This document shows, piece by piece, positions 12,776 to 16,877 of a stretch of DNA of 35,095 bases. Source of the stretch: Chloroflexota bacterium (GTDB lineage Bacteria > Chloroflexota > Anaerolineae > Anaerolineales > E44-bin32); NCBI GenBank assembly GCA_024277995.1, contig JAJRUD010000165.1, positions 1 through 35,095 of the forward strand. Reading direction: 5' to 3'. Under the pieces are notes generated by a model. It ran no database searches, was not told the DNA's origin, and saw only the letters and a list, made by a program, of their open reading frames with translations. The position numbers and the translations under genes are program-made. Position 1 is the first letter of the stretch. Every line of letters begins with the position of its first letter.

Positions 12776-12804
12776 TTGACCCGCGCCCGTTTCTCTTGTA
12801 GACT
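12776..12804 (+). promoter_or_regulatory. Sigma70-type promoter TTGACC-17-TAGACT
   Basis: -35 12776-12781, 17-nt spacer, -10 12799-12804. Confidence 0.7.
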
Positions 12805-12840
12805 GCGTGCGCGCATTTTGCAGAAAGGAGCAGGCGACTT

Positions 12841-12942
12841 ATGCACAACCTCATCCCCAATCGCCTCTGGGTTGCAACCCCGGCTGCCTTCGGCAGCGGT
12901 GTTGTCCCCTTTCCTACGCGGAGTGCGCCTACTGAACGGTAG
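12841..12942 (+). CDS. 33-aa leader peptide (MHNLIPNRLWVATPAAFGSGVVPFPTRSAPTER)
   Basis: AAAGGAG Shine-Dalgarno at 12824-12830, ATG at 12841, TAG at 12940; promoter upstream and terminator downstream. Confidence 0.65.
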   Translation: MHNLIPNRLWVATPAAFGSGVVPFPTRSAPTER

Positions 12943-12980
12943 ACCTTCTGACTGAACGACAGAACCGCGGGCGCGCTCCG
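12919..12980 (+). promoter_or_regulatory. Predicted antiterminator helix: 12919-12930 (CGGAGUGCGCCU) with 12969-12980 (GGGCGCGCUCCG)
   Basis: 12 contiguous pairs including two G-U; 3' arm takes 6 nt of the terminator 5' arm. Confidence 0.6.
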
Positions 12981-12996
12981 GCGCCCGTGGTTTTTT
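12965..12996 (+). terminator. Intrinsic terminator/attenuator hairpin
   Basis: CCGCGGGCGC/GCGCCCGTGG 10-bp stem with one G-U, 6-nt loop, followed by TTTTTTG. Confidence 0.85.
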
Positions 12997-13003
12997 GTCT
13001 CAG

Positions 13004-13044
13004 CGCACAAGCCGGCCGCGGGCACCCTGCGGCCGGCTTGTGCG
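13004..13044 (+). repeat. 16-bp perfect inverted repeat hairpin just upstream of an RBS
   Basis: CGCACAAGCCGGCCGC/GCGGCCGGCTTGTGCG with 9-nt loop; acggagg RBS follows. Confidence 0.85.
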
Positions 13045-13060
13045 TTTACGGAGGGTCCCG

Positions 13061-13261
13061 ATGAACATCAATCTCTCTTTCAACGGTCACGACATATACG
13101 TCCAGGGCCGCCTGCGCCGCGCGGAACTGATGCAGCACGCACAGGAAGAGCGCATGCTGCGCTCAAGGCGCCGCCGACCGAGCTTGCGCCTGGCAATGTT
13201 GCTCGCCGGGGATGCAGGCCTGGCTGCCCTGGCGCTGCTGGCGCTGCTCTCACTGCTGTGA
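13061..13261 (+). CDS. 66-aa small membrane-anchored protein
   Basis: ATG 13061 after GGAGG; Arg-rich middle and hydrophobic C-terminus LAMLLAGDAGLAALALLALLSLL. Confidence 0.6.
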   Translation: MNINLSFNGHDIYVQGRLRRAELMQHAQEERMLRSRRRRPSLRLAMLLAGDAGLAALALLALLSLL

Positions 13262-13360: not shown

Positions 13361-14185
13361 ATGCAGAAGATCGCCATCGACGTTGAAGAACTGTACAAAG
13401 TGTTCCGCAAGCCGCGCCGCCGTCCCTGGCGCGCCAGGGACGGCAAGCCCGCCGCAGGCCAGGTCGTGGCTGTGGACCATGTCTCGTTCCAGGTACACAG
13501 GCGCGAGATCTTCGGCGTGTTGCGTCCCAACGGTTCCGGCAAATCGACCCTGATCCGCCTGATCGCCACGCTGCTGCTGCCCGATGGCGGCCGGGCCGAG
13601 GTCTTCGGTCACGACGTGGTGCGCGAACCCATGGCCGTGCAGCGCCTGATCAATCGCGTCTCCGTGGAGGCCTCTTTCTTCAAGAAGCTGTCACCCATGG
13701 AGAACCTGCTCTACGGCGCCCGTCTCTACGGGTTGCCGGCCAGCCAGGCCAGGGTTGCCATCCACGCCATCCTGAAATGCATCGGCATCGAAGAGCGCTC
13801 CATCGGCCAGCCAATGCAAGAGATGTCGCGCGGCATGCAGCAGAAGGTGGCCATCGCACGCGCCCTGCTCACCCGCCCGGCGCTGCTGCTGCTCGACGAG
13901 CCCACCACCGGTCTCGACCCGCGCTCCAAGCGCGAGGTGCAGGACCTGGTGCGCGAGCTGCGCGAGCAGGACGACACCACCATCGTGCTCACCACCCACG
14001 ACATGGTCGAGGCCGAGGTACTCTGCGACCGCATCGCCATCATGGATTCCGGCAAGGTGGTGGCGCTGGGCACACCTCAGGGCCTGCGCCAGCTAGTGCC
14101 CTCCCGCAACGGCCACCAACCGACCCTGGAGGACGTATTCCTGGAATTGACCGGCAAACAGCTCGTCAGCGAGGAACGCGTTTGA
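13361..14185 (+). CDS. ABC transporter ATP-binding protein (drug/ABC-2 exporter type)
   Basis: Walker A-like LRPNGSGKST; MSRGMQQKVAIARAL signature; LLLLDEPTTGLDP; TTHDMVEAE. Confidence 0.92.
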   Translation: MQKIAIDVEELYKVFRKPRRRPWRARDGKPAAGQVVAVDHVSFQVHRREIFGVLRPNGSGKSTLIRLIATLLLPDGGRAEVFGHDVVREPMAVQRLINRVSVEASFFKKLSPMENLLYGARLYGLPASQARVAIHAILKCIGIEERSIGQPMQEMSRGMQQKVAIARALLTRPALLLLDEPTTGLDPRSKREVQDLVRELREQDDTTIVLTTHDMVEAEVLCDRIAIMDSGKVVALGTPQGLRQLVPSRNGHQPTLEDVFLELTGKQLVSEERV

Positions 14186-14268: not shown

Positions 14269-15096
14269 ATGTTCGCCAGCACCACCCAACAAATCCGCGC
14301 CTCTTACGCCTTCGTCGAGCGCAACGCCTATCTGGTCAAGCGCTATTGGTCCTGGGAGCTGGTCTGGCTCTCCTACTCCATCGCCAACAGCCTGTCGGTG
14401 TCCTACATCGGGTTGGGGATGGAAAGCATCGGCGGCCAGGGCATCGACGGCCGATACCTGGTGCTCTACCTTGTCGTGGGCACACTGGTCTGGCGCTACC
14501 TGTCGATGATCTTCTATTGGATCACCGACATCATCGGCCTGGAGCGCTGGGAAGGCACCATCGAGTACACGCTCATGGCGCCCATTCACCGGCTGACCCA
14601 CATGGCCGGCCAGACCCTCTTCGCCGTGATCTACAGCATGCTCTTCACCGGTGTCATCCTGGCCGTCACCGTGCTGCTCTTCAAGCTGGACCTCTCGCAG
14701 GCCAACCTTCTTGGCGGGACGCTGGTGATGCTGGCCGGCAGCCTGTCCTTCATCGGCGTCGGCATCGTGGGCTCGGTGCTGCCGCTGCTCTTCCCCGAGC
14801 GCGGCAGTCAGATGACCCATGTCATCATCGCCCTGCTGTTGCTGGTCTCCGGCGTGTACTACCCTATCGAAGTCCTGCCGATGGCTCTGCAGCGTATGTC
14901 GATGCTCTCGCCGGCCACCTACGTCCTGCGCGGCGTGCGCGCCGCTCTGCTGGAGAACGCGCCCATGGCCCGCCTGTGGCCCGACATCTGGCCCGCCATG
15001 CTCATGGGACTGGCCGCCGTTCCGGCCGGCCTGTGGGTCTTCGGCCTGGCAGAACGCTATGCCAAGCGGACGGGCAAGCTGCATCGCAATGGCTGA
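14269..15096 (+). CDS. ABC-2 type transporter permease
   Basis: Multiple hydrophobic segments; YYPIEVLPMALQRMSMLSPATYVLRGVRAALL typical of ABC-2 permeases; follows the ATPase gene. Confidence 0.88.
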   Translation: MFASTTQQIRASYAFVERNAYLVKRYWSWELVWLSYSIANSLSVSYIGLGMESIGGQGIDGRYLVLYLVVGTLVWRYLSMIFYWITDIIGLERWEGTIEYTLMAPIHRLTHMAGQTLFAVIYSMLFTGVILAVTVLLFKLDLSQANLLGGTLVMLAGSLSFIGVGIVGSVLPLLFPERGSQMTHVIIALLLLVSGVYYPIEVLPMALQRMSMLSPATYVLRGVRAALLENAPMARLWPDIWPAMLMGLAAVPAGLWVFGLAERYAKRTGKLHRNG

Positions 15097-15117: not shown

Positions 15118-16158
15118 ATGACCACCATCCCGACACCCATCCAGCAAGGACAATCCGATCCGGCCCAGCGCCTCATCCTCAGGCCGGCCACCATGCAGGA
15201 TCTAGAGGTCGTCGCCGACCTCTTCAACCGGCATGCCGTGGCAACCACCGGCGCGCCTGAGACCAACGTTGAGCGGCTGCGCAGAGGGTGGACCACACCG
15301 GGATTCGACCCGACCCACAACGTCCGCCTGGCCGTGAACTCCCGGGGGGAGGCGCTGGGCGTCGTCAAGCTATGGGACCTGGACGAGCCGCCCCTGATAC
15401 ACTACGTCGCATGCGCCGTACACCCGGAGCATCTGGGCCGCGGCATCGGCACGGCGCTCAACTGCTGGGCCCATGACCGCGCCCGGGAGTCGCTCCACCG
15501 CGCCCCGCCGGGGGCGCGCGTGGTGGTCCACAGCTACACCGTGAGCGGCCACGAGCCGACGCGCCGGCTCTTCGAGAGCCTGGGGATGCGCCTCATCCGC
15601 CACTCCTACCACATGGTCATCGACCTGCAGGCCCCCATCCCGGAACCGCGCTGGCCGGCGGGCATCAGCCTGCGTCCCTTCGCCCCCGAGCGCGATGCCG
15701 AGGCCGTCTTCCGCGCCGAGGACGAGGCCTTCCAGGATCACTTCGGCTACGTGGAGGAGCCCTTCGAGACGGCCTTCCCGCGCTGGCGCCACTACCGCCT
15801 GCAGGGGGAGAGCTTTGACCCCGCACTGTGGTTCGTCGCCGTGCAGGGCGACCAGATCGCCGGGCTCTCCATCTGCCGGCTGAAGGCCGATGATGACCCA
15901 CAGATGGGCTGGATCTCCTCGCTCTGTGTGCGCCGCCCCTGGCGCCGCCGCGGCCTGGCCCTGGCCCTGCTCCTGCAGTCCTTCCGCGCCTTTCGCGAGC
16001 GAGGGCAGCAGCGGGCCGGGCTGGGGGTCGACGCCAGCAACCTGACGGGCGCCACTCGCCTCTACCAGCGCGCCGGAATGCGCATCCAGCGCCAGTACGA
16101 CCTCTATGAACTCGAGCTGCGCCCGGGTAAGGAACTGGCCACGGTGAGCCTGGAGTGA
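15118..16158 (+). CDS. GNAT family N-acetyltransferase, two tandem GNAT domains
   Basis: AVHPEHLGRGIGTALNCWA and LCVRRPWRRRGLALALLLQSFRAFRERGQQRAGLGVDASNLTGATRLYQRAGM. Confidence 0.9.
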   Translation: MTTIPTPIQQGQSDPAQRLILRPATMQDLEVVADLFNRHAVATTGAPETNVERLRRGWTTPGFDPTHNVRLAVNSRGEALGVVKLWDLDEPPLIHYVACAVHPEHLGRGIGTALNCWAHDRARESLHRAPPGARVVVHSYTVSGHEPTRRLFESLGMRLIRHSYHMVIDLQAPIPEPRWPAGISLRPFAPERDAEAVFRAEDEAFQDHFGYVEEPFETAFPRWRHYRLQGESFDPALWFVAVQGDQIAGLSICRLKADDDPQMGWISSLCVRRPWRRRGLALALLLQSFRAFRERGQQRAGLGVDASNLTGATRLYQRAGMRIQRQYDLYELELRPGKELATVSLE

Positions 16159-16193: not shown

Positions 16194-16241
16194 CCCATCG
16201 CGCGTTACAATTCGAGGCACCTGGAAAGGGGCTCAGCCGCC

Positions 16242-16877
16242 ATGACAGAAGCACCACCCAACATACGCGCCGTCATCTGGGATCTGGGAGGCGTGCTCGT
16301 CCGCACGGAAGACTGGACCCCGCGCGCGCGCTGGGAGCAGCGCCTGGGGCTGGAGCCCGGCGCGCTCTCGCGCCTGGTCTTCGAAGGCGAGGCTTCCCGC
16401 AGGGCATCCATCGGCCAGGCCGACACGGCCGACGTGTGGCAATGGGTCGGTCGCCGGCTGGGCATCCCGGAGGAGGAATGGCCCCTCCTGGAACGCGACT
16501 TCTGGTCCGGCGACAGCGTGGACATGGAGATCATCGCCTTCATCCGCGGGCTGCGCCCGCGCCTGGCAACCGGCCTGCTGAGCAACGCCTGGCCCTCCCT
16601 GCGCCAAGCCCTTGAAGAGCACTGGCGCATCGCCGACGCCTTCGATCACATCGTCATCTCCGCTGAGGCCGGCATGGTCAAGCCGGACCCGCGCATCTAC
16701 CACCTTGCCCTGCAGGGCCTGGGGGTCGCGCCTGAAGAGGCGATCTTCATCGACGATTTCATAGAGAACGTCGAGGGCGCACGCGCCGTGGGTATGCACG
16801 CGGTCCACTTCCGCTCGTCCGAACAGGCATTGGAAGAGGTCCGCGCCCTGCTCGATAACACTTCTGCGGGAGCCTAG
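16242..16877 (+). CDS. HAD superfamily hydrolase
   Basis: VIWDLGGVLVRTEDW; GLLSNAWPSLR; MVKPDPRIYHLALQGLGVAPEEAIFIDDFIENVEGA; start reset to ATG 16242. Confidence 0.92.
   Translation: MTEAPPNIRAVIWDLGGVLVRTEDWTPRARWEQRLGLEPGALSRLVFEGEASRRASIGQADTADVWQWVGRRLGIPEEEWPLLERDFWSGDSVDMEIIAFIRGLRPRLATGLLSNAWPSLRQALEEHWRIADAFDHIVISAEAGMVKPDPRIYHLALQGLGVAPEEAIFIDDFIENVEGARAVGMHAVHFRSSEQALEEVRALLDNTSAGA

Follow-up and report, generated by a model that had tools for sequence, protein, structure and literature searches.

Is the region ahead of an exporter and acetyltransferase cassette in an Anaerolineales genome a switch operated by the ribosome? We addressed this question in a window of 35,095 nt (the whole stretch of DNA that was analysed: contig JAJRUD010000165.1 of the Chloroflexota bacterium assembly GCA_024277995.1), for which an initial annotation had proposed a complete ribosome-mediated attenuator. 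In our assessment the element is very probably a ribosome-mediated transcription attenuator, a member of a family present across Anaerolineae, which answers impaired translation. The computed part of this reading comprises the reading frame, the exclusive covarying helices, the gene context and the class-wide distribution; the behaviour of ribosome and RNA polymerase, the change in readthrough, the expression and the inducer are inferred.

Parts of the element and genes of the cassette

The following features of the window are referred to below.

12776..12804, + strand, promoter: TTGACC (12776-12781), a 17-nt spacer and TAGACT (12799-12804), from the promoter scan
12824..12840, + strand, SD AAAGGAG (12824-12830) and region 1, AGGCGACTT (12832-12840), a potential pairing partner of the leader end (anti-antiterminator)
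12841..12942, + strand, leader ORF of 33 codons, ATG at 12841 to TAG at 12942, peptide MHNLIPNRLWVATPAAFGSGVVPFPTRSAPTER followed by the stop
12919..12930, + strand, region 2, the conserved leader end CGGAGTGCGCCT, which pairs with region 3
12963..12996, + strand, putative terminator T1, a hairpin with a T tract
12969..12980, + strand, region 3, the T1 5' arm and loop, antiterminator partner of region 2
13003..13045, + strand, second hairpin (T2 position), -43.5 kcal/mol
13061..13261, + strand, 66-aa ORF with a hydrophobic C-terminus, no Pfam or NCBIfam match
13361..14185, + strand, ABC ATPase, DrrA-like (PF00005; best match TIGR01188 drrA, below cut-off)
14269..15096, + strand, ABC-2 type permease (PF01061; drrB match weak, below cut-off)
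15118..16158, + strand, GNAT acetyltransferase with two GNAT domains (PF00583, PF13302)

The promoter, the AAAGGAG, the 33-codon ORF and the hairpin with a T tract, as read off in the initial annotation, are all present. The helix between SD and leader end (anti-antiterminator), the second, stronger hairpin and the existence of an element family lay outside that annotation. A gap of 16 nt separates the end of the upstream homoserine dehydrogenase gene, hom, from the promoter, which is the one promoter-like site detected by the scan (0.2 expected in shuffles); 119 of 148 elements likewise have a -35/-10 pair at a comparable distance.

The T1 hairpin (12963-12992) has an energy of -25.1 kcal/mol, not reached in any of 200 shuffles, and its T tract is TTTTTT at 12991-12996. 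The hairpin is absent from the list produced by a simple terminator scan, and the terminator call thus rests on fold, T tract and conservation. On these grounds the claim of an intrinsic terminator before the structural genes can be upheld, with termination itself inferred.

The 12-nt pairing proposed earlier between 12919-12930 and 12969-12980 was found as a 12-bp helix (-25.1 kcal/mol for the duplex alone), which covaries in relatives. The arm-to-arm fold of regions 2 and 3 gives -26.9 kcal/mol (z -3.8), and the 2:3 energy of the window is the lowest among the 143 elements measured. The pairing of region 1 with region 2 is weak in the window, being limited to a 5-bp core (AGGCG/CGCCT), and strong in relatives. 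The window leader folded alone has ordinary stability (z -0.8), which counts against our best explanation. The second hairpin is without a good T tract and directly precedes the SD of the next ORF. No second copy of the leader was found in the same genome, the only result being a self-match of the second hairpin.

As to the cassette proposed initially, its ABC ATPase, ABC-2 permease and GNAT acetyltransferase are supported by Pfam. The 66-aa ORF, also counted in, was rejected as a conserved member, having no counterpart among 26 relatives; it is probably accessory or lineage-specific. A weak match to it exists in its own genome (G000:C200:37026-37199, 39% identity, E 1.3e-5). For the permease no relative was found among solved structures. 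The GNAT gene is followed by a gene for a HAD-type hydrolase (DLGGVLVRTED; window 16221-16877), and similar HAD genes lie near the switch in L063 (2383-2991), L077, L078, L086, L087, L091, L101, L121 and L159.

Relatives and distribution of the element

Fourteen other genomes of the order supplied orthologues of the ABC ATPase, and in 13 of them the upstream stretch was long enough. All 13 usable orthologous leaders have the same arrangement, while the gene further upstream differs between them. A covariance model, R1, was built from these leaders with the window left out; its structure includes the SD/leader-end helix and T1 only. In a search of the window's own genome R1 found the element at 12823-12994 (59 bits, E = 3.6e-11). 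Since a model built without the window recovers it, the element is not a product of chance.

Across the order, R1 matches 183 of 301 genomes and is represented in 82 of 112 genera, with no more than five matches per genome. A refined second model, built from 92 matches, detects the element in 160 of 396 genomes of the class Anaerolineae (Chloroflexota). In a sample of 400 genomes from the phylum, which doubles as a specificity control, 34 genomes have a match, all of them in Anaerolineae and none outside the class. The check suggested in the initial annotation, conservation of leader ORF and helices in relatives, was thus passed across both order and class.

A nucleotide-pattern scan gave matches mainly in Anaerolineae/Anaerolineales and unclassified Chloroflexota; cultured carriers such as Bellilinea caldifistulae (GOMI-1) and Longilinea arvoryzae (KOME-1) are among them. 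Pattern matches in Kiloniellales, Planctomycetota, Methylocystis, Alphaproteobacteria, Algicola and one IMG/VR contig were taken as chance, because no convincing model match accompanied them. A caveat is that the element set was partly collected by means of the leader-end motif itself.

Reading frame and peptide of the leader

The frame is open to the leader-end motif in all 142 elements with an assigned start (ATG in 137), the corresponding numbers for the other offsets being 32 and 63. The assigned starts were picked so as to reach the motif, which qualifies this count; in a control that took the first ATG between 10 and 40 nt into the element, just one of 137 frames ended short of the motif. 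Judged from sequence, the leader ORF is a genuine reading frame, its translation being inferred. Most leaders are 22-35 codons long.

Variation in the middle of the peptide is almost unconstrained (pN/pS ~0.67, pooled over 30 overlapping close pairs). Three readings of the conserved leader end, CCTTNTCGNAGTGCGCCTNNTG, occur: 115 leaders give P-x-R-S-A-P, 25 use a second frame (..LSECAC or ..LSYCACCP before the stop) and two use the third frame. Two of the frames are seen as well among the model-gathered loci alone, without the motif-gathered part. Because the leader end is read in three frames, we infer that the conserved entity there is the RNA, not the peptide. The two third-frame leaders end, before the stop, in ..LLEVRLLTVR (L152) and ..LFEVRLLTVS (L162).

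The leader sequences contain no run of one regulatory amino acid, in agreement with what had been remarked for the window. The Arg-X-Arg motif, a known macrolide/ketolide arrest motif of the ErmDL type (PMC8298421), occurs in the coding frame of 16 of 106 leader clusters, against an expected 4.0, for the most part at codons 9-14. A ribosome stalled at this position would leave region 2 free, which would favour the ON state. The likeness to ErmDL-type leaders extends to part of the leaders and not to that of the window, from which the motif is absent; therefore, we consider Arg-X-Arg a lead for a subset only.

Copies of the element before ABC-F genes in L142, L148, L167, L183 and L197 have no clear SD region 1 and retain the leader end and T1. 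In L148 the position of the ATG near the -10 box suggests a leaderless leader ORF.

Covariation of the competing helices

The leader end covaries both with the SD of the leader, as an anti-antiterminator, and with the terminator, as an antiterminator. In the 1:2 helix, typically formed by GGAGGCGCAC of region 1 and GTGCGCCT of region 2, 97.3% of cells are paired, with both-side changes in five of the six pairs. For T1 the paired fraction is 92.9% and both-side changes occur in all ten pairs, which makes 15 of 16 for the two helices together; the cells with both-side changes number 112 in total versus 30.5 in shuffles. The alignment behind these counts was fitted to the structure, so that the counts lean towards structure; the energy tests are independent of the alignment. 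In these tests the duplex energy within a locus beats that of permuted partners for both 1:2 and 2:3 (0/5000 each), and the result holds when each similarity cluster contributes a single leader and when partners are permuted only inside a gene class (0/3000). Leaders with GGAG pair off with CTCC in T1 (p 8e-10); likewise GTAG goes with CTAC, GCGTC with GACG at the SD and TTGCG with CGCAA. The controls lessen the effect of shared ancestry and do not eliminate it. The proposal that antiterminator and terminator helices exclude each other gains support here, as both are kept in relatives with compensatory changes.

Genes downstream of the element

Elements were selected by the RNA model or the nucleotide motif and not by gene, with the exception of the founding orthologues of the window ATPase. 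Among the 139 elements with a readable first ORF, the first gene is of a resistance type in 122: ABC exporters whose membrane and ATPase domains are fused, often two in tandem (46), DrrA-like ATPases (40), GNAT acetyltransferases (25), ABC-F ribosome-protection-like proteins (7; two were scanned and both exceed the NF000355 cut-off) and MFS transporters (4). GNAT genes, such as the one in the window cassette, recur directly under the same element at other loci. The recurrence of resistance-type genes downstream of related elements backs the efflux/modification unit inferred initially for the window. Export, acetylation and ribosome protection would fit a common signal of impaired translation, with the drug substrates undetermined.

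Some first genes encode proteins of about 150-200 aa without Pfam or NCBIfam match (L061:1837-2286, L119:4362-4841, L193:3695-4276), some of which share a YRVDYLN-like start. A protein of the 23S rRNA-intervening-sequence type (PF05635 in L073) recurs as the product of the second gene under the switch, which follows the first ABC exporter gene (L073:2697-3092; relatives in L084, L116, L146, L150, L155, L189 and L191).

The second hairpin

A T2 hairpin follows T1 in 84 of 140 elements; it is a frequent feature where the first gene is DrrA-like, GNAT or MFS and is seldom present ahead of ABC exporters (6/46). The T1 3' arm is a better match for the T2 5' arm at its own locus than for T2 5' arms taken from other loci (0/3000), and in the window, as read from the letters, pairing is possible between 12983-12990 and 13016-13023. 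T2 could be a copy of T1; alternatively, an arm released when T1 opens could in turn open T2. The data do not discriminate between these possibilities. In a chained switch of the latter kind, capture of the T1 5' arm by the leader end would free the T1 3' arm, which would in turn capture the T2 5' arm, and both barriers would open together.

Proposed mechanism and alternative explanations

In the attenuator that we favour, region 1 is the leader SD, region 2 the leader end, and regions 3 and 4 are the arms of T1. With no ribosome on the leader, 1:2 would form and T1 would terminate transcription. A ribosome that finishes the leader and stands at the stop would cover region 2, and T1 would form (OFF). 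A ribosome delayed within the leader, either in its first half or around the middle, would open 1:2 and leave region 2 free; 2:3 could then form, and transcription would reach the exporter and acetyltransferase genes. The peptide is under little sequence constraint and has no repeated amino acid; we therefore infer that the likeliest signal is impaired elongation as such, as opposed to a lack of one particular amino acid. Antibiotics that target the ribosome are the most likely natural inducers, an inference made without expression or drug data.

Another cause of a stall in mid-leader could be uncharged tRNA, as in an attenuator answering amino-acid starvation. Arginine would be a candidate: its frequency is raised 12-14 codons ahead of the conserved end, to about 20% in frame A leaders. 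However, most leaders have no Arg at that place, there is no run of a single amino acid, and the downstream genes are not amino-acid biosynthesis genes; we regard starvation as an improbable trigger. An Erm-type leader, in which the nascent PxRSAPxxR end would sense the drug, is suggested by the high conservation of this end in 115 of 142 leaders. A stall at the leader end would, however, cover region 2 and favour termination. The RSAP end was rejected as an arrest peptide, since the same nucleotides are read in the second frame (25 leaders) and the third (two); with three frames, the pN/pS given above and Arg-X-Arg in a minority only, a conserved arrest peptide is not in evidence, and this explanation is very improbable.

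The remaining two alternatives make the ORF accidental. That a ligand-binding riboswitch or a protein-binding leader carries it incidentally is very doubtful: the long conserved leader, the internal hairpin and the alternative helices could belong to such an RNA, but the frame is strictly kept, the interior sequence is variable, there is no conserved unpaired core, and Rfam offers no match. The end of hom, so close to the promoter, raises the possibility of ordinary terminator(s) of that gene with a fortuitous ORF. Yet the upstream gene varies by locus while the element stays with the downstream gene, the promoter lies between hom and the element, the ORF is conserved, and the alternative helices covary; this explanation can hardly be maintained.

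Relation to known systems

To our knowledge, antibiotic-responsive attenuators have been described singly and mostly in Bacillota. Two leaders of Bacillus subtilis, bmrB (for bmrCD) and vmlR, whose drug induction was shown by experiment (PMC4191407; PMC9226507), are close in architecture, a likeness that for neither leader rests on sequence comparison. The vmlR leader has a uORF, an anti-antiterminator, an antiterminator and an intrinsic terminator, and also a hairpin downstream of the terminator, comparable to T2, that could be disrupted by readthrough pairing; like some Anaerolineae elements, it controls an ABC-F gene (PMC9226507). In contrast, its uORF is very short and it serves a single gene in Bacilli, whereas the leaders of the present element are about 22-35 codons long, the element stands before five gene families in a different phylum, and its leader end itself pairs with the leader SD. 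The bmrB leader, located before a heterodimeric ABC exporter and induced by ribosome-targeting drugs, shares the translated leader ORF, the terminator, the antiterminator and a predicted anti-antiterminator (PMC4191407). It has 53 codons, belongs to one organism and contains the helices inside bmrB, while the Anaerolineae element is class-wide with a leader end conserved in nucleotides. The mutually exclusive 1:2, 2:3 and 3:4 helices are those of trp/his attenuators, from which the element differs in having no regulatory codon run, in its genes (exporters, acetyltransferases) and in the lack of an Rfam leader match.

Searches of Rfam 15 at gathering and permissive thresholds gave no match apart from chance miRNA- or sRNA-like ones. 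We found no earlier description of the element in Anaerolineae/Chloroflexota in the open literature; most subscription literature was outside the search. Within the scope of Rfam 15 and the open literature, the attenuator architecture of the trp/vmlR/bmrB type is known and the class-wide Anaerolineae family is new.

Anaerolineae are a mostly uncultured class, in which the switch recurs before different resistance-type genes. We put forward only tentatively, as a possibility short of probable, that one peptide-independent, translation-sensing RNA switch, with chained T1 and T2 in many copies, constitutes a class-wide resistance regulon. One RNA read in three frames is a natural experiment that separates RNA constraint from peptide constraint. 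If the interpretation is true, ABC exporter, DrrA-type, acetyltransferase, ABC-F and MFS genes of an environmental class would belong to a shared RNA regulon for resistance, and the leader alone would flag resistance-type genes whose substrate is undetermined.
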